From contig NZ_RBIM01000002.1 of NCBI RefSeq assembly GCF_003634045.1, positions 434,001-498,000 of the forward strand: a stretch of DNA of 64,000 nucleotides. The letters run 5' to 3'. Position 1 is the first letter of the stretch; every line of letters begins with the position of its first letter. A model generated the notes under the pieces. It ran no database searches. It was not told the origin of the DNA and was given only the letters and a program-made list of their open reading frames with translations. Positions 4,256 to 14,210 of the stretch are shown piece after piece. This DNA comes from Maricaulis maris. GTDB taxonomy: Bacteria > Pseudomonadota > Alphaproteobacteria > Caulobacterales > Maricaulaceae. Made by a program: the position numbers and the translations under genes.

Positions 4256-5602
<1,347 letters not shown>

Positions 5603-5633
5603 TCCGCCCGGCCGGCCCGGTTGAGGAGAGGAC

Positions 5634-6284
5634 ATGCGCGGCTTCGGTGCCGAGGAATTGCTCAATTGCTATGCCCGCGGCGTCTTCCCGATGGCCGAGG
5701 GTCGCGACGATCCGCGCATCTACCTGCTCGACCCCGACGAACGCGGCATCATCCCGCTCGATGGCTTCCATGCCTCACGCAGCCTGAAAAAGACCGTCCG
5801 CCAGGATGTGTTCCAGGTCACCGTCGATCATGACTTTGCTGCCGTGGTCGCGGGCTGTGCCACACCGGCATCGGGCCGCGAGGAAACCTGGATCAATGAT
5901 GGCATCATCCGCCTCTATGGCGACCTGCATACGGCCGGCTATGCCCATTCGGTGGAATGCTGGAGCGGCGATGATCTGGTTGGCGGGCTCTATGGCGTTT
6001 CGCTGGGCGCCGCCTTTTTCGGCGAGAGCATGTTCTCGCGCCGCCGCGATGCCTCCAAGGTCGCGCTCGTCCACCTGATCGCGCGGCTCAAGGCCGGTGG
6101 CTACAGCCTGCTCGACACGCAATTCACCACCGAGCACCTGCAAAGTTTCGGCGCGCAGACGATTTCACGCAGCGATTATCGCGCGAAACTGGCCGATGCG
6201 TTGATATTCGAGGCGGACTTCAACACGCTGCCGGACGAGATAACCGGCGATCAGGCCCTGCAGTCGATCACCCAGACGTCGTAG
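5634..6284 (+). CDS. aat: Leucyl/phenylalanyl-tRNA--protein transferase
   Basis: A 216-residue Aat protein. It adds Leu or Phe to N-terminal Lys or Arg of proteins, marking them for ClpAP via the N-end rule. Family features include [14 protein letters not shown] near the start, [20 protein letters not shown], the [19 protein letters not shown] core and the terminal LLDTQF..HLQSFGA segment. A GAGGAGAGG ribosome site precedes the ATG. The 3' end overlaps the convergent DUF2155 gene by 34 bases. The aroQ-accB-accC-aat order supports the call. Confidence 0.95.
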
Positions 6285-6727
6285 ACGGGGTGTTCCAGCG
6301 GGTTCTGGGCCGGCCGCGAAGCAAACATCCAGCCGGAAAAGATCGGCTCGCCCTCGACATCGACTCCAAAACCATCGGTCCGGCGATCATTGACCTGCAG
6401 GAAGGCATAGGTTTCCGGCGTCTCTTCCGGCGGCCGCTTGCGGCAATATTGCGCCGTGATCGACAAGGCCCCGAACTGGACCGTGTCGCCAATGGCGACC
6501 TCGAAATCGCGGGTGCGGGCGGTCACCTTGTCGAGACCGCGCAAGACAACCAAGCTGCCCGGCTGCGAAGACAAGGGACCCCGTTCCGGCGTGTTGTCTG
6601 GGTCGTCGCGGCGCAGGAGGTCGGATGCGTCCTCGGCGGATGAGGACGATGACGGGGTCTCGTCCTGGGCCCAGAGTGGAGCGGCCAGCGCGAGCGAGAC
6701 AATCGAGGCGAGTACACAGGTTTTCAT
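6251..6727 (-). CDS. DUF2155 exported protein
   Basis: A 158-residue exported protein of the DUF2155 family. It has a signal peptide (residues 1-20, cleavage after LWA), a low-complexity Ser/Asp-rich linker and a C-terminal domain with two conserved Cys (in [18 protein letters not shown] and the terminal IDCRA) that could form a disulfide. DUF2155 genes typically lie next to aat and an NDUFA12 gene in alphaproteobacteria, as here. The molecular role is unknown. The end overlaps aat by 34 bases on the opposite strand, so the two genes share sequence. Confidence 0.85.
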
Positions 6728-6769: not shown

Positions 6770-7186
6770 TTATGCCTCGTCCGGAGACCAGGCCTGATAG
6801 TCACCGGTCGTGGACTGGCGGCGGTCACTGGAGGCGAGCGAGCCGGTCGGACGATAGGCGTGCACCGTGCCGGTGAGATTGGGATGGTGATCCTTCTCCC
6901 ACGCCTGGCGCATCAGCGGCGTGTCGCTGGGACGTTCGTCGAACGTGTGATGCAGCCAGCCATGCCAGTCAGACGGCACGCGCGAGGCGTCGGCATAGCC
7001 CTTGTAAATGACCCAACGACGCTTCTGGCCCTGGCCATCCGGACCGGTGACACCGGATTCCTCGAAATAGCGATTGCCGTACGCGTCCGAGCCGACCTGT
7101 TTGGCGCCGCGCATGCGCAGCGTCAGGAAGGTTCCCGGGGTGGCATCTTTCCACCACACGAAGATTTTTGAGATCAGTCCGAACAT
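6770..7186 (-). CDS. NDUFA12-like complex I accessory subunit
   Basis: A 138-residue protein of the NDUFA12 (B17.2) family, one of the few eukaryotic complex I supernumerary subunits also found in alphaproteobacteria. Family segments are visible: NRYFEE, RRWVIYKGYADASRVP, and WHGWLHH. It is expected to bind the peripheral arm of NADH:ubiquinone oxidoreductase on the cytoplasmic side. The ATG at 7186 starts at a typical MFGLI position. It lies 42 bases upstream of the DUF2155 gene on the same strand, forming a conserved two-gene unit. Confidence 0.92.
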   Translation of the reverse strand: MFGLISKIFVWWKDATPGTFLTLRMRGAKQVGSDAYGNRYFEESGVTGPDGQGQKRRWVIYKGYADASRVPSDWHGWLHHTFDERPSDTPLMRQAWEKDHHPNLTGTVHAYRPTGSLASSDRRQSTTGDYQAWSPDEA

Positions 7187-7340: not shown

Positions 7341-10298
7341 ATGCAGGTCTTCGGTCGCCTAGCCGATTTCATCGCCGAGACAGCGTCCGCCAGCGGGCTG
7401 GAGACGCACCTGCTGGCATCCAGTGATGATGATGCGGACGGCCCAACCGATGCCGCGAGCGGCACCGTGCGGCAGATCACCACGCCGGCGGGCTGGAGCG
7501 GCACCGCCGCCCAAACCCTCGCCGACCTGCTGGACACGCCACGGCCGCTGCAAACCAGCCCGCGCAAAGGCGCCAAGACCTTCGGCGCGCTGTGCCCGGC
7601 CTCGGCAAGCGGTGATGAACGCGTCCCTGAAACGGATTTTGCCACCGCCGCTCAGCGCTTGTCCGGCGCCATGGCCTGGTCGGCGGCCCGGCAGGGCGGT
7701 TTCGCCAATGACACTGACGCTGAACTGTTTGCCGCCGAACTCGCCGCCAGCCTGACCGGACGAATGGTCATTGCCGATGCCACGCTGATCCGCGAAGGCG
7801 GTGTCGACTGGGCCTATGGTGATCCAGTGCCCGGCGCCGCAACGCCAACACCGCCGCTCACCATCCGCGTCAATTCGCGCCAGGCCCCGGGCCAGTTGCG
7901 CCGCGTCGCCGAAACGGCGCTGCGCGCTTCGGTCCTTGATGTCGGCGCCCGCGTCACCCGTGATCGTCTCGAAGCGATCGGCGAAGCGGTGCGTCGCTGT
8001 TCAGGCGATATCGAGGAATGTTTCGATCCGCGCCGCAATGCCGCCCTGGCCCGCGCCATGCGCCGCGCCCTCAAGGACGGCGTGCCGGAGGAAGCCGTCG
8101 AACGCGCCCTCGCCCTGGCCCGGCAAGGCACCGATGACGAGGCGCTCTCGGCGCTTATTCCCGACGCGGTCGAGACCCGCCCGGCGGTTTTGCATGTGCC
8201 TGCGGCCTTCACGGCTGCCGTATCGGGCGACCAGACTTGGACGTTTGAACAGGATGGCGGCGAAGTGCGTGCCCGTGACTTGCGGACCGGCATTGCCCGC
8301 ACCGTATGGAGTTTCGGCACGCCGTCACTGGCCTTCCACGCCAGTCCGGACGAGACCGGGCCGAGCCTGTGGATCAATCTTCCCGCCTTCCTTGATCACA
8401 AGCATGGCTTCCGGGCAGACCTTTTTACCGACGCATTGCGCTACTGGGCCATCGCACTGACTCTCAGCGCGCCCAAGGGCGCCAGCTCGGCCGGCTCCCT
8501 GTCCCTGACCGGTCTCGGTGCACTAATGATGTCGGCCGGCCTCGCCTACAGCAGCGATGCGGCCCGCGCCGCCAGCGCCGCCATTGCCCACCTGGCGACA
8601 CGAACCCTACGCGATGTCGCGATGGAAACCGGAGCCGCCGCGCCCGGGCTGGGTGAACTGCCGGACCTCGACCTCCTGCCCGCCGCCTTCTCGCCGGTGG
8701 CCGCCGAGTTGCGCACGTCCCCCGCCCCCTTCCTGCCGAAAGCCGCCTTGGCCAGGCCGGGACCGACCCTGACCTGCCGGGAGCCGGATGCCACGGTCGC
8801 CGCCCTCATCGATGCCGACAGTTTCGGCGCCAAGCCGGTCGCGTCGGCGATCACCAGCGATGCCGACATGGCAGGTGGCCGACGCCTGCGCGATTGTGCC
8901 CGTGCCGGCCTGCTTGCCTTGGGCTGCAGCGTCACCGAGGTCGAACGCGCCGAAGATCATGCCGCCGGCCATGGCAGCCTGCGCGGCGCCCCCGGCATCT
9001 CGCTGGAAGACCTGATGGCACGCGGCTTGCCGGCCGAGGCGCTTGAACGCCTCGAAGACTCGATCGCGGAGGGGGCTTCCATCCGCCACGCCCTCAATCG
9101 CTGGACACTCGGAGACCGGACCTGTCGCGACGCGCTGGGCCTGACCAGCGACGTGATCGAGCGTGACGGCAATTCCCTGTGCCACGCCATCGGTTATGAC
9201 GAGGCCGATATCCGCGCCGCCGATGCCCACGCCCACGGCACCGGTGATCTCGCCGGCGCTCCGGACCTGTCGGCCAATACGCGCCGGGTCTTCGACACGC
9301 CGTCGCACCAGGACCAGATGCTGATGGCCGCCGCCATTGAGGCGCAGATTGGCGGCTGCTGCCAGACCGCGCTCGCGATCGAGGGCGATGCCACGATTGA
9401 TGATGTCGCGGCCCTGATCGATCTCGGCGGCGAGCTGGGCCTGCGGGCCCTGTCGATCCGGCGCACGGCGTCGGGCCTGTTCGACCTCTTGCCGGCGATT
9501 GATTTCGACAAGGGCGATTATGCCGCCGAGGCGCCGCCGACCGAACGCGTCGTTGAGCGCACGGTTGAACGGGTTGTCGAAATGCCGGCCGCCCGCCGCA
9601 AACTTCCGGACCGCCGCAAGGGCTATATCCAGAAAGCCACTGTTGGCGGCCACAAGGTCTATCTCCACACCGGCGAATTCGATGATGGCGAGCTCGGCGA
9701 GATTTTCATCGACATGCACAAGGAAGGCGCCGCCTTCCGCTCGCTGATGAATAATTTCGCCATCGCGATCTCGATCGGCCTGCAATACGGCGTACCGCTG
9801 GAAGAATTCGTCGACGCTTTCGTCTATACGCGCTTCGAGCCCGCTGGCGCTGTGCAGGGCAATGACTCGATCCAGCACGCGACCTCTATCCTGGACTATC
9901 TCTTCCGCGAGCTCGGCGTTTCCTATCTCGGCCGTGATGACCTGGCGGAAATTCCGGCTGACAAGGCTGATCCCGGCGATCTCGGTCGCGGCGTCCAGGA
10001 AGAGAAGCTGGCCCAGGAAGACGCGGCCAAATTCATTTCGCGCGGCTTCTCGCGCGGCCAGGTGCCCGACAATATCCTGATGTTTGCCAATGCCCCGAAG
10101 CGGGCCGCCAGCGGCGATGGCAAGGACAATCAGTCCGGCCATTACGAGATCGAGGATCAAGGCCACGCCACGCGATCGACCTCGCGTGACATCTCCGTCT
10201 ACAGCGGCGCACCCTGCCCGGAATGTGGCCATTTCACAGTCGTGATGGACGACGAGACGGGGCAGAAATGTGATGCCTGCAACTGGACCGGTAGCTGA
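7341..10298 (+). CDS. Class II ribonucleotide reductase-like protein lacking the catalytic motifs (TSCPD protein)
   Basis: A 985-residue protein that follows the architecture of B12-dependent NrdJ. The C-terminal quarter is clearly NrdJ-like: a TSCPD domain (about residues 755-860, with [19 protein letters not shown] and [13 protein letters not shown]) and a final zinc-ribbon-like CPEC...CDAC pair (about residues 958-980). Earlier segments also match NrdJ from memory, for example [20 protein letters not shown] and FNKW-like [12 protein letters not shown]. However, the NPCSE motif with the thiyl-radical cysteine is absent (the alignment runs straight into [12 protein letters not shown]) and the PTGTI loop reads [10 protein letters not shown] infer a catalytically dead paralogue, perhaps regulatory. 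The start at 7341 has GGGAGGG upstream. NDUFA12 lies divergently. Confidence 0.8.
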
Positions 10299-10355: not shown

Positions 10356-10844
10356 ATGGTACGGCTTATCCTTGCCCTGACCGCCCTCGTCGCGACATCC
10401 GGCCTTGCCCAGGCCCAGGATGCGGGACAGATTGCGCGTGTCCAGGCGGGCCAGTCCTGCCCCGGCTGCAACCTTTTCCAAGCGGAACTGGCTTATCGCG
10501 ACCTGCCCGGCATTGATGTGTCCGGTGCCCGCCTGCGGCAGGCGAACCTCGCCTTGGTGACCATGAACCGGGCCCGTTTCGACGGCACCGACCTGTCTGT
10601 TGCCAACCTCTTTGGCGGCCGTTTCACCGGCGCCAGCTTCCGCAATGCCGATCTCAGCCGGGCCAATCTGGTCGGCGCCCATTTTGGCAGCGCCGACTTC
10701 AGCGGCGCGGATCTCAGCGGCGCAACCCTGTCCGGCGCCGAGATGGAGCGGGTTCGCGGCCTCACCCAGGCCCAGCTGAGCGCAGCGTGCGGCGACAATT
10801 CGACACAATTGCCGGCCGGACTGACGCTGCCAGCCTGTCGCTGA
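10356..10844 (+). CDS. Exported pentapeptide-repeat protein
   Basis: A 162-residue protein with a signal peptide (residues 1-20, ending AQA) followed by about 14 pentapeptide repeats of the A(D/N)LXX type (for example ADLSRANLVGAHFGSADFSG). Such repeats form a right-handed quadrilateral beta-helix. A CPGC motif opens the mature domain, and a Cys pair near the end (SAACG, LPACR) may close it by a disulfide. A GGAGTG lies upstream of the ATG. The next gene repeats the design (ECEGC entry, ACGDGTT exit), so the two are paralogues. Function is unknown. Confidence 0.8.
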   Translation: MVRLILALTALVATSGLAQAQDAGQIARVQAGQSCPGCNLFQAELAYRDLPGIDVSGARLRQANLALVTMNRARFDGTDLSVANLFGGRFTGASFRNADLSRANLVGAHFGSADFSGADLSGATLSGAEMERVRGLTQAQLSAACGDNSTQLPAGLTLPACR

Positions 10845-10951
10845 TCACCGCTTGCAATGCTGGCCAGCCCAGCCACGCCCTCATAGGATATGCAATCGGG
10901 TTACCGTGATTTAAGTCGCCTTGCCGGTTTGGCTGGCCTATCCGTGAGCAT

Positions 10952-12322
10952 ATGCGGAACAGATTGAAGATATTCGCTTCTTCGGCCGCGCTCCTGGCGC
11001 TGGCAGTCTCGCCTGCCTTGGCGGGCGGCGACGACGACCATCCGCGTCGTGGCTTGGCCATTGGCGGCGAATGCGAGGGCTGTGACTTTTCCGACAAGAA
11101 CATGGCCAATGCCGTTTTCATCGGCGCCAATTTCGAAGGCACCACTTTCGCCCAGTCGGAACTGCCGTCGGTCACGATGATCGAGAGCCAGTTCAACGAT
11201 ACCGATTTCAACGAAGCGATCATGGTCAACGCCCGCCTGACCGGTGTGACCTTCTCGCGCGCCAACATGTCCGGCGCGACGATGGCAAACTCGGTCATTG
11301 AGCGGGTCAATTTTTCCTCGGCCGACCTCGCCGACACCGACTTCACGAGCGCCCAGATGGTCTTCGTTACCTTCATCGGGTCTTCGCTCACCGACACACT
11401 GTTCGCCGATGCACGTTTGCGCCAGGTGAATTTCCTGCGCGCCCAACTCAGTGACACCAATTTCCGGGGCGCCGAGCTGCGGCGGGCGAATTTCGCCGAG
11501 GTCTCGGGCAATGACGTCAATTTCCAGGATGCAGACCTGACCGGCGCCAACTTCCAGGGCGCCAGCCTGCGCGAGGTCGACTTCACGGGTGCCAGCCTGA
11601 TCGGCGCCAATTTCTCCGGCGCCTCATTTGCCGAAACCACCGGGCTGACCAAGGAAAATCTCAGCGGCGCCTGTGGAGACGGGACCACCGCCCTGGGTCC
11701 GGGCGTCAACCTGCCCGATTGTGGCAGCCTGTCCGATGACGCCCGCACGACCTCGCGTTTCGAATATGCGCTGCGCTTCTCGCAGCCGGAACGGGTCGAG
11801 CGCGTGATCGAACTCCAAGCGTTGGAAAATGCCCGCATCGAGATCCTGTCAGAGATCGGAGCGGCGCTGCAATTGCACGCGTCAGAGCTCGACCAGGACG
11901 CCATTCGCGAAGCCACCAATGACGCCATGCGTGAGATCGCCCGCGCCGAACGCGAACTGCGCCGTATCGAACGCGAACGCGAATCCCAGCGCGAGGCGAT
12001 CAGCGAGGAAAGGCGCCGCATCCTGGAAGATGCGCGGCGCGAAGCGATGGATGCCAACCAGGCCGCCCGTCGCGCACTTCGCGACCAAAACCGGGCCCTG
12101 GGCCGCAATGGCCGCGCCACCGCCCGCATCGAGACCGAGGACGGCACCTATATCATCGAGCTACCCGATACAGACACTGACACAATCTGGATGATCGATG
12201 ACCAACATCTGCGCCGGGTCACACCGACACCACCCGATCCGCACACTCCGCCGGAACCACCGGAACCGCACAATGCCATGCCGGATCCCCAACCCGGTCG
12301 CCGCGGCCACCATCCTGATTGA
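10952..12322 (+). CDS. Exported pentapeptide-repeat protein with charged helical tail
   Basis: A 456-residue protein with four parts: a signal peptide (1-24), an ECEGC motif, about 40 pentapeptide repeats (residues 45-235) ending at the same SGACGDG cap seen in the upstream paralogue, and a tail. The tail holds an Arg/Glu-rich predicted coiled coil (about residues 290-390) and a Pro/His-rich terminus (from about 425). The mix of a beta-helix and a long charged helix on an exported protein is unusual. It could be a periplasmic spacer or scaffold, which is inference. A perfect hairpin terminator follows 18 bases after the stop. Confidence 0.8.
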   Translation: MRNRLKIFASSAALLALAVSPALAGGDDDHPRRGLAIGGECEGCDFSDKNMANAVFIGANFEGTTFAQSELPSVTMIESQFNDTDFNEAIMVNARLTGVTFSRANMSGATMANSVIERVNFSSADLADTDFTSAQMVFVTFIGSSLTDTLFADARLRQVNFLRAQLSDTNFRGAELRRANFAEVSGNDVNFQDADLTGANFQGASLREVDFTGASLIGANFSGASFAETTGLTKENLSGACGDGTTALGPGVNLPDCGSLSDDARTTSRFEYALRFSQPERVERVIELQALENARIEILSEIGAALQLHASELDQDAIREATNDAMREIARAERELRRIERERESQREAISEERRRILEDARREAMDANQAARRALRDQNRALGRNGRATARIETEDGTYIIELPDTDTDTIWMIDDQHLRRVTPTPPDPHTPPEPPEPHNAMPDPQPGRRGHHPD

Positions 12323-12392: not shown

Positions 12393-14210
12393 TCAGGTCT
12401 TCTTCGCATCCGGCACCACCGTGCGGATGTGCAGCTCGCGCAATTGTTTGAGCTCAACCTCGGCCGGTGCGTTCATCATCAGGTCGCGAGCTTGCTGATC
12501 CTTCGGGAACATCACCACTTCGCGCAGGTTTTCGACGCCGGCCAGCAGCATGACCATCCGATCAACACCCGGCGCGATCCCGGCGTGCGGCGGGGCGCCA
12601 TAGCGGAAGGCGTTGAGCATGCCGCCGAACTCTTCCTCGACCGTCGCCGCATCATAGCCGGCAAAGGCGAAGGCTTTCAGCATCACGTCCGGACGGTGAT
12701 TCCGCACGGCGCCGGATGACAGCTCCACGCCATTGCAGACAATGTCGTACTGGAAGGCCTTGAGGGCCAGCAGCGTGTCGGCATCGGTATTGGCATCGAG
12801 CTTGAGGAATTCATCCGGATCGATCTGCGGCATCGAAAACGGATTGTGCGAGAAGTCGATCTTCTTGTTGTCCTCATCCCACTCATACATCGGGAAATCG
12901 ACGATCCAGCAGAAGCGGAAGGTATCCTTTTCGCAAAGATCGAGTTCGGTGCCGACGACATCGCGGGCACGCCCGGCAAAGCTGGCGAAATCCTTCGGGT
13001 CGCCAGCCGCGAAGAAACACGCGTCACCTGCGCCGAGGCCGAGTTCAACGCGCAGCGCCTCGGTGCGCTCCTCGCCGATATTCTTGGCGATCGGGCCGGC
13101 CGCTTCCAGGCCACCCTCGGCCTCGCGCCAGAAGATATAGCCCATGCCCGGCTGGCCCTCTTTCTGGGCCCAGGAATTCATCCGGTCACAGAAGGCCCGA
13201 CTGCCGCCGGTCTTGGCCGGGATCGCCCAGACCTGGACCTTGGGATTGCGTTCCAGCATGCCGGCAAACACCTTGAAGCCGGACCCGCGGAAGGTCTCGG
13301 AGGCATCGGCCATCTTGATCGGGTTGCGAAGGTCCGGCTTGTCGGAGCCATACCAGCGCATGGCATCCTTGTAGGCGATCTGCACAAAAGGTTCGTCCGG
13401 CACGGTGCGACCGTCGGCAAACTCGTCGAACAGGCCCTTCATGACCGGCTCGATCACATCGAACACGTCCTGTTGGGTGGCAAAGCTCATTTCCATGTCG
13501 AGCTGGTAAAACTCGCCCGGCGCCCGGTCGGCGCGGGCATCCTCGTCGCGGAAACAGGGTGCGATCTGGAAATAGCGGTCAAAGCCGGAGACCATGATCA
13601 GCTGTTTGAACTGCTGCGGCGCCTGCGGAAGGGCGTAGAATTTGCCCGGATGGACCCGGCTCGGCACCAGGAAATCGCGTGCACCTTCCGGTGAGGAGGC
13701 GGTCAGGATTGGCGTCTGGTATTCGACGAATTTCTCGTCGACCATGCGGCGGCGAATGCTGTCGATGATCTTCGAACGCAGCACGATGCGCTTGTGCAGG
13801 CTCTCGCGGCGCAGATCGATATAGCGGTGCTTGAGGCGCACCTCTTCCGACCAGTCCGGCTCACCAAAGACCGGAAGCGGCAATTCTTCCGCTTCCGACT
13901 GGATCGCCAGCTCGGCCAGGCGGACCTCGATCTCGCCGGTCGGCAGGTTGGCGTTCACGGTCTCGTCGGAGCGGGCGATGACCTCACCGGTCACAGTGAT
14001 CACGCTTTCAACACGCAAGCGTTCCAGCGTCGCGAAATGCGGGCTTTCCGGCTCCAGCACGACCTGGGTCAGGCCATAATGGTCGCGCAGGTCGATGAAG
14101 AGCAGACCGCCATGATCGCGCTTGCGGTGGATCCAGCCGGAAATCCGGGCCGTCTGGCCGACATGGTCCTTGCGCAGTTCGGCGCAAGTATGGGAGCGGT
14201 ATGCATGCAT
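12393..14210 (-). CDS. aspS: Aspartyl-tRNA synthetase
   Basis: A 605-residue bacterial-type class II AspRS: N-terminal OB-fold anticodon domain ([17 protein letters not shown]), class II motif 2 ([19 protein letters not shown]), the bacterial GAD insertion domain and motif 3 ([11 protein letters not shown]). It charges tRNA-Asp. The full GatCAB set lies just downstream, so this enzyme is probably the non-discriminating kind that also forms Asp-tRNA-Asn, subject to no AsnRS being encoded elsewhere. A sigma-73-like promoter is proposed at 14251-14280. Confidence 0.96.

Follow-up and report, generated by a model that had tools for sequence, protein, structure and literature searches.

Within the 64,000-nucleotide stretch of the Maricaulis maris genome analysed here (the window), a gene for a 985-residue protein lies in a conserved gene neighbourhood (Table 1). 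The order accB-accC-aat-DUF2155(-)-NDUFA12(-)-gene-pentapeptide-aspS(-) was found in 10 of 12 loci with short forms of this gene, and in the other two aspS alone among the core neighbours is absent from the stretch. Canonical nrdJ genes, which encode vitamin B12-dependent class II ribonucleotide reductases that supply DNA building blocks, share the setting. Of 12 canonical loci taken from the family and from its relatives, five have the whole block, five have one side of it and two have neither, and outside the family NDUFA12 is present in the stretch in 16 of 24 canonical loci. NDUFA12 also adjoins the gene in loci of families f2, f3, f10, f24, f85, f86 and f140, but not in f132. Two further observations concern the neighbours: in most alphaproteobacterial loci examined NDUFA12 stands divergently beside nrdJ or its remnant, and within the family pentapeptide-repeat genes follow nrdJ whether the genome carries the canonical or the short form.

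Table 1 Features of the nrdJ-derived gene and its surroundings (positions in the window).
Feature	Position	Strand	Basis
accC and aat, conserved upstream neighbours	4256..6284	+	profile matches, gene order
DUF2155 gene, conserved neighbour	6251..6727	-	profile match, gene order
NDUFA12-family gene, divergent neighbour, kept beside canonical nrdJ and barrel-less forms	6770..7186	-	profile match, gene order
Putative NrdJ-derived pseudoenzyme, 985 aa	7341..10298	+	ATG start, no internal stops
Remnant of class II N-terminal region, residues 1-195	7341..7925	+	PF08471, E 0.0091, under its cut-off
Site of deleted block (~100 residues of canonical NrdJ, with HACF and its presumed redox Cys), residues 166/167	7838..7839	+	alignment
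YebC/TACO1-N-like insert, residues 196-265, C220 and C227, also in canonical alphaproteobacterial NrdJ	7926..8135	+	PF20772
Remnant of barrel and following helices, residues 266-725	8136..9515	+	7b9p match, alignment, structure model
Site of deleted NPCSE finger-loop block, residues 337/338	8351..8352	+	alignment
EPDATVAAL in place of canonical PTGTI loop	8781..8807	+	alignment
TSCPD / IscU-like core, residues 752-868 (117 residues)	9594..9944	+	PF12637, conservation
Zinc ribbon, residues 956-985, C959, C962, C977, C980	10206..10295	+	alignment; Cys roles from PMC5704485
Two pentapeptide-repeat genes downstream	10356..12322 (10356-10844, 10952-12322)	+	profile matches, gene order
aspS, conserved neighbour on the other side	12393..14210	-	profile match, gene order

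Descent from NrdJ and conversion in place

The 985-residue protein is matched by the NCBIfam model for class II reductases NF005736 (PRK07562) with an E value of 2.9e-138 and 462 bits, short of the equivalog cut-off of 1737 bits. The solved NrdJ structure 7b9p is matched by sequence in pieces (E 4.3e-37), and the TSCPD domain (PF12637) is recognized at E 1.3e-11 with 45.1 bits, above its cut-off of 22.8. A Pfam search for the barrel domain PF02867 gave no match at E<=0.01. The NF005736 and 7b9p matches together with synteny support common descent, and at the level of sequence they confirm that the gene product derives from class II reductase NrdJ.

Since the gene occupies the position of canonical nrdJ in relatives, we conclude that it was converted in place. 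A horizontally acquired or duplicate copy was ruled out, as the genome has no other NrdJ-like gene and this one sits at the canonical locus. In a protein tree the 34 Maricaulaceae short forms make up one clade (SH-aLRT 100; a quick method that gave long-branch warnings). A tree of five linked genes likewise unites them (99.5/100), and their sister there is a canonical genome (99.3/99). The sole PF02867 protein of the window's genome is a class I NrdA with the motif NLCAE; its gene is located on a contig other than that of the window, with nrdB a few kb away.

Loss of the catalytic parts

Compared with canonical NrdJ of about 1,225 residues, the 985-residue protein lacks about 240 residues. Alignment of 56 proteins (short forms from 18 Maricaulis and 16 other Maricaulaceae, and 22 canonical sequences) revealed three deleted blocks in the barrel, among them the one that held the first redox cysteine and the one with the NPCSE finger loop. 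A sequence-only reading of this DNA had noted that NPCSE with its thiyl-radical cysteine is missing, which proved true of the whole group: N, C and E of the motif fall in gaps in every short form (18/18 from Maricaulis, 16/16 from other Maricaulaceae), and all three residues occur in 22/22 canonical proteins. The same reading had correctly described the PTGTI loop as altered, PTGT having become PDAT within a segment of ten residues. The cysteines of HACF and ACNL we take to be the redox cysteines of the barrel; HACF (the first) is deleted and ACNL (the second) is replaced in all 34 short forms. Canonical proteins carry six cysteines at the C-terminus. Their four zinc positions are kept in 34/34 short forms, whereas the positions of the redox pair are cysteine in 0/34. 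The earlier statement that the TSCPD domain and the terminal CxxC pairs are retained therefore holds for TSCPD and the four zinc cysteines, but not for the redox pair. For Stackebrandtia nassauensis NrdJd, four of the equivalent cysteines are proposed as zinc ligands, three of which fit the zinc data cleanly, and the other two are proposed to be the redox pair through which electrons reach the active site (PMC5704485). As the barrel blocks and the C-terminal redox cysteines are absent from all 34 short forms, the catalytic parts were lost jointly, as one set.

This pattern extends beyond the family. NPC[SG]E together with six C-terminal cysteines was found in 87/87 canonical proteins and in 0/51 barrel-less proteins with complete C-termini; of the latter, 40 have a four-cysteine ribbon and 11, from f85, f24, f140 and f86, have none. 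Note that these rows include near-identical pairs (L157/L158 and L036/L116) and that one Maricaulis, one canonical and one viral protein with a cut 3' end were omitted. Viral proteins have six cysteines in 44 of 46 cases, and so do all 11 viral tail-only (CRD-only) open reading frames with a complete ribbon. Four of nine viral records with a tail show no PF02867, though these records may be fragments; with the same proviso we take the tail-only frames to belong to reductases that are split or that pair with host partners. One of them, on the IMG/VR viral contig L185 (3016-3663, 215 aa, six cysteines), lies between frames that by eye resemble helicase and SSB genes, and PF02867 was not found in its 51-kb record.

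An active reductase with relocated catalytic residues was ruled out: NPC[SG]E, the barrel redox cysteines and the C-terminal redox pair are all missing, and the alignment of 56 proteins contains no catalytic triad at another position in the short forms. Judged by its sequence, the 985-residue protein cannot be a reductase of known kind.

Predicted structure

The full-length structure model is weak (mean pLDDT 65.6, pTM 0.59). Its best match in the PDB is class II NrdJ 7b9p (E 1.1e-22, TM 0.44/0.48), so that the structural likeness to class II reductases expected earlier is found for the model as a whole, while a complete ten-stranded barrel is not demonstrated by a model of this quality. A separate model of the tail contains a well-predicted core (pLDDT blocks of about 84-95) with three strands and helices. 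When this core was compared by Foldseek, IscU chains took the top three rows with E values of 0.26-0.51, which are not significant, and a profile of the tail alignment found no significant match in the PDB (best E 0.39). An IscU-like fold has been reported for the class II C-terminal domain, the role of which is described as unreported in the same paper (PMC9669993). The Foldseek rows agree with this published fold without proving it.

The segment at residues 196-265 is matched by PF20772 with E 9.5e-4 in the context of the whole protein and 6.6e-5 as a segment. The corresponding NrdJ insert segments are matched at E<=0.01 in 32 of 36 cases (best E 1.8e-7), and scores of 23.7 and 24.8 bits lie under the Pfam cut-off of 36. 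In alphaproteobacterial NrdJ the insert is found in the barrel region, for example at residues 296-378 of L072, and resembles the N-terminal domain of TACO1/YebC.

Where selection acts

For seven pairs of Maricaulis species, in which dS is often near 1, dN/dS of the whole gene is 0.075-0.116. Two parts of the short forms are the most constrained, the core (0-0.025 for residues 751-870) and the YebC-like insert (0-0.05). The zinc ribbon follows with 0.04-0.12 and the barrel remnant with 0.07-0.15, and the N-terminal region (residues 1-195), at 0.11-0.21, is the least constrained part. Across three groups of short forms, conservation reaches about 97% at the start of the core, where the alignment shows a conserved basic stretch, and mostly 10-40% in the barrel remnant. 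The core itself contains no cysteine and is 89-100% identical across the 34 Maricaulaceae short forms. Constraint in the core and drift in the barrel remnant mean that a small core was kept and not a full-length scaffold. The earlier claim of a retained scaffold is thereby corrected: some 240 residues are gone, the C-terminal core and the YebC-like insert bear most of the constraint, and the remainder drifts. On the other hand, the view of a NrdJ relative held by selection is borne out by the dN/dS values and by retention, as the gene is present in 51 of 52 genomes of seven short-form genera among the matches listed, once as a fragment. Taken together, these data support the reading that the protein is a catalytically dead NrdJ derivative maintained by selection. 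Genus g12 stands apart, with no homologue in 17 of 18 genomes among the matches listed, which counts against a vital role.

Core divergence was also related to that of accC. Pairs with an accC distance <=0.05 were dropped (3 of 78 in Maricaulaceae and the sole f3 pair). Among orphans, as we call the forms that lack an intact barrel, the median core/accC distance ratio is 0.38 in Maricaulaceae (75 pairs), 0.45 in f2 (1 pair), 0.44 in f85 (6 pairs) and 0.16 in f10 (1 pair). The canonical ratios are 0.50 in the family (10 pairs), 0.47 in the class (55 pairs) and 0.53 overall (120 pairs). Ratios of orphan versus canonical proteins are 0.52 for Maricaulaceae, 0.54 for f2 and f3, 0.48 for f10 and 0.67 for f85 (64 pairs). 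According to these ratios, the core has not accelerated in Maricaulaceae, f2/f3 and f10, while the value for f85 is raised. Because the core is not accelerated without a barrel, support of the NrdJ active site is not what mainly constrains it, in Maricaulaceae, f2/f3 and f10 at least. Core identity to P0001 is 50-58% in f24 and 42% in f86, compared with 78-92% in canonical proteins; in f24 and f86 the core constraint has changed or weakened.

Recurrence in other Alphaproteobacteria

In a sample of 251 alphaproteobacterial genomes, the core was detected at E<=1e-20 in 166 and not in 85. Among the matches listed, most frames with the core encode about 1,200 residues or more. The orphan count in this sample is a minimum (12 of the 166 core-bearing genomes were examined, and G409 was left out). 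Barrel-less or barrel-broken forms occur in eight further families, namely f2, f3, f10, f24, f85, f86, f132 and f140. Those of f2 and f3 comprise 811-927 residues and that of f132 918; f24 has forms of 565 and 530 residues and one longer open frame, and the f140 and f86 forms give partial PF02867 matches. The shortest are the f10 form of about 280 residues and the f85 form of about 275, the latter in single-contig genomes of 1.2-1.3 Mb. The f85 forms (L133-L136, L146) have a distinct N-terminal region that by eye is conserved and has no credible Pfam match.

Class I NrdA is present in all 18 non-Maricaulaceae orphan genomes checked. Two of them (G369 and G289) encode a further PF02867 protein, which the orphan might serve. 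As a separate observation, an extra single-piece PF02867 protein (open frames of 590-850 residues) besides NrdA occurs in the short-form genomes G066, G068, G069, G082, G024, G026, G029 and G030.

In the tree of five linked genes, the orphans of Maricaulaceae, f2, f3 and f86 are separated by canonical lineages, which implies four losses or more, provided that barrels once lost are never regained. Note that in this tree the placement of f2 is weak (86/43), support is low at deeper nodes and f2 and f3 fall oddly among f1 rows; L258, with its odd accC match, and the loci lacking both accC and aspS (f24, f140, f132) were excluded. The same catalytic loss with a kept tail in several bacterial lineages suggests a separate job for the tail.

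Candidate functions of the core

The core persists where the barrel and electron transfer are gone, and in some lineages the zinc ribbon too, and the constraint on it therefore does not come from serving the NrdJ active site. We consider it very likely that the core has a catalysis-independent function, which canonical alphaproteobacterial NrdJ would probably carry as well. The native nrdJ of the accB-accC-aat-DUF2155-NDUFA12-nrdJ-aspS locus would have become a pseudoenzyme in place after class I NrdAB had become enough for dNTP supply. In this course of events the active-site blocks and the C-terminal redox cysteines would have been lost together, a step seen in the alignment, and the core, in this lineage along with the YebC-like insert and the zinc ribbon, would have stayed under strong purifying selection, as is observed. 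Overall, a pseudoenzyme arisen in place from nrdJ, with a core that functions independently of catalysis, is in our judgement the best explanation and a likely one. Several findings count against it: the core is dispensable in some lineages (g12; the 85 of 251 genomes without core), it has diverged in f24 and f86 and has a raised ratio in f85, the IscU-like fold was not reproduced with significance, and G369 and G289 possess the additional PF02867 protein. With somewhat less assurance, we lean towards the view that canonical alphaproteobacterial NrdJ is a two-function protein, that the core function predates the split of the surveyed families and that losses of the catalytic half exposed an undescribed family, down to forms of about 280 residues in genomes of about 1.2 Mb.

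As to the molecular role, we offer the tentative guess that the core may be a nucleotide-responsive assembly module. It is put forward because a conserved basic stretch starts the core and because, for Stackebrandtia NrdJd, the C-terminal domain is described as needed for dATP/dGTP-induced tetramers and hexamers and as sharpening effector affinity, with lower constants (PMC5704485). In orphans such a surface, able to oligomerise and to respond to nucleotides, would have a different client, for instance the class I enzyme or other nucleotide or nucleic-acid proteins.

A rival reading, in which the orphan tail binds NrdA/NrdB, relays a dNTP signal and so regulates or assists the class I reductase, appears unlikely to us. 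It would fit the presence of NrdA in all the non-family orphan genomes checked and, close to nrdB, in the window's genome, as well as the changes in effector affinity and dATP/dGTP-induced oligomers reported for the NrdJd domain (PMC5704485). However, NrdA accompanies canonical NrdJ in the same family too, so that the co-occurrence is weak evidence, nrdA is encoded on another contig, and g12 has a class I reductase and no orphan. With an assumed NrdR-box consensus, a site with <=4 mismatches was found upstream of 0 of 16 short forms, compared with canonical nrdJ in 5 of 13 cases at <=3 and 6 of 13 at <=4 mismatches; the genome's own nrdA has one with 3 mismatches, and the null, built on the window's own base composition only, gave 0/400 at <=4. 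Shared NrdR control was rejected on these grounds, though the canonical genes of close relatives are mostly without a match as well (5 of 7 without any, 1 of 7 counted with one) and the absence in orphans therefore says little. A scan for promoters and terminators gave nothing useful.

We regard as improbable a scaffold for Fe-S clusters or complex I, with an IscU-like core working with the neighbouring NDUFA12. The fold reported for class II C-termini (PMC9669993), the IscU chains at the top of the Foldseek rows and the adjacency of NDUFA12, which accompanies barrel-less forms as well as canonical genes (outside the family in 16 of 24 loci of the latter), speak for it. Against this stand the insignificant Foldseek E value of 0.26, a core without cysteine and the possibility that the adjacency is merely old gene order, NDUFA12 being on the opposite strand. 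A functionless, slowly decaying pseudogene would account for the poor conservation of the barrel remnant between genera (0.1-0.4), for gene loss in some lineages and for the strongly diverged cores of f24 and f86. This very improbable reading was rejected on dN/dS and retention: the frames are open in all 34 family proteins, core dN/dS is 0-0.025 with 89-100% identity, and the gene persists in genomes of about 1.2 Mb. That the protein still reduces nucleotides at a rebuilt active site, as its class II-like predicted remnant fold might suggest, is almost certainly wrong given the deleted finger loop with the thiyl cysteine, the loss of all redox cysteines in 34/34, the lack of a PF02867 match and the presence of a class I enzyme.

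To our knowledge, little is known of pseudoenzymes derived from ribonucleotide reductase. Among the titles listed in searches of an open-access library, none is on barrel-less NrdJ; TSCPD occurs in two papers there, neither of which is devoted to the domain by its title. Repeated loss of the catalytic half with retention of the tail is a natural separation-of-function experiment. The part of the tail worth keeping without catalysis is the core, neither the redox pair nor always the zinc ribbon, and the function of the class II tail domain becomes testable by simple deletions. Proteins annotated as B12-dependent reductases by their TSCPD domain may neither make dNTPs nor need B12.

Comparison with known systems

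Class II NrdJ of Alphaproteobacteria, represented by the Rhodobacter sphaeroides structures 7b9p/7b9q, resembles the 985-residue protein in several blocks, the locus, the TSCPD core, the zinc cysteines and the YebC-like insert. It differs in having the NPCSE finger loop, the barrel redox cysteines, the C-terminal redox pair and about 240 further residues. In Caulobacter crescentus the NrdJ locus tag is CCNA_01966 (PMC6538847). The N-terminal domain of TACO1/YebC is similar to residues 196-265 of the short form and to the equivalent NrdJ insert, which differs in that the N-terminal helical part alone is present and the two scores given above stay below the cut-off. With the IscU Fe-S scaffold, the resemblance described for the class II tail (PMC9669993) corresponds to a weak Foldseek likeness of the core (E 0.26), which unlike IscU has no cysteine ligands. 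NrdJb and related CRD proteins (P. aeruginosa NrdJb, S. nassauensis NrdJd) share the TSCPD/IscU-like core and the four-cysteine zinc ribbon. The main role of NrdJb is given as thiol-disulfide exchange for NrdJa (PMC4520616). The 985-residue protein has neither the redox pair nor a partner barrel, whereas viral CRD-only frames keep all six cysteines. By these comparisons it is not a functional class II reductase and not a working NrdJb, and would represent a variant built from a known domain.
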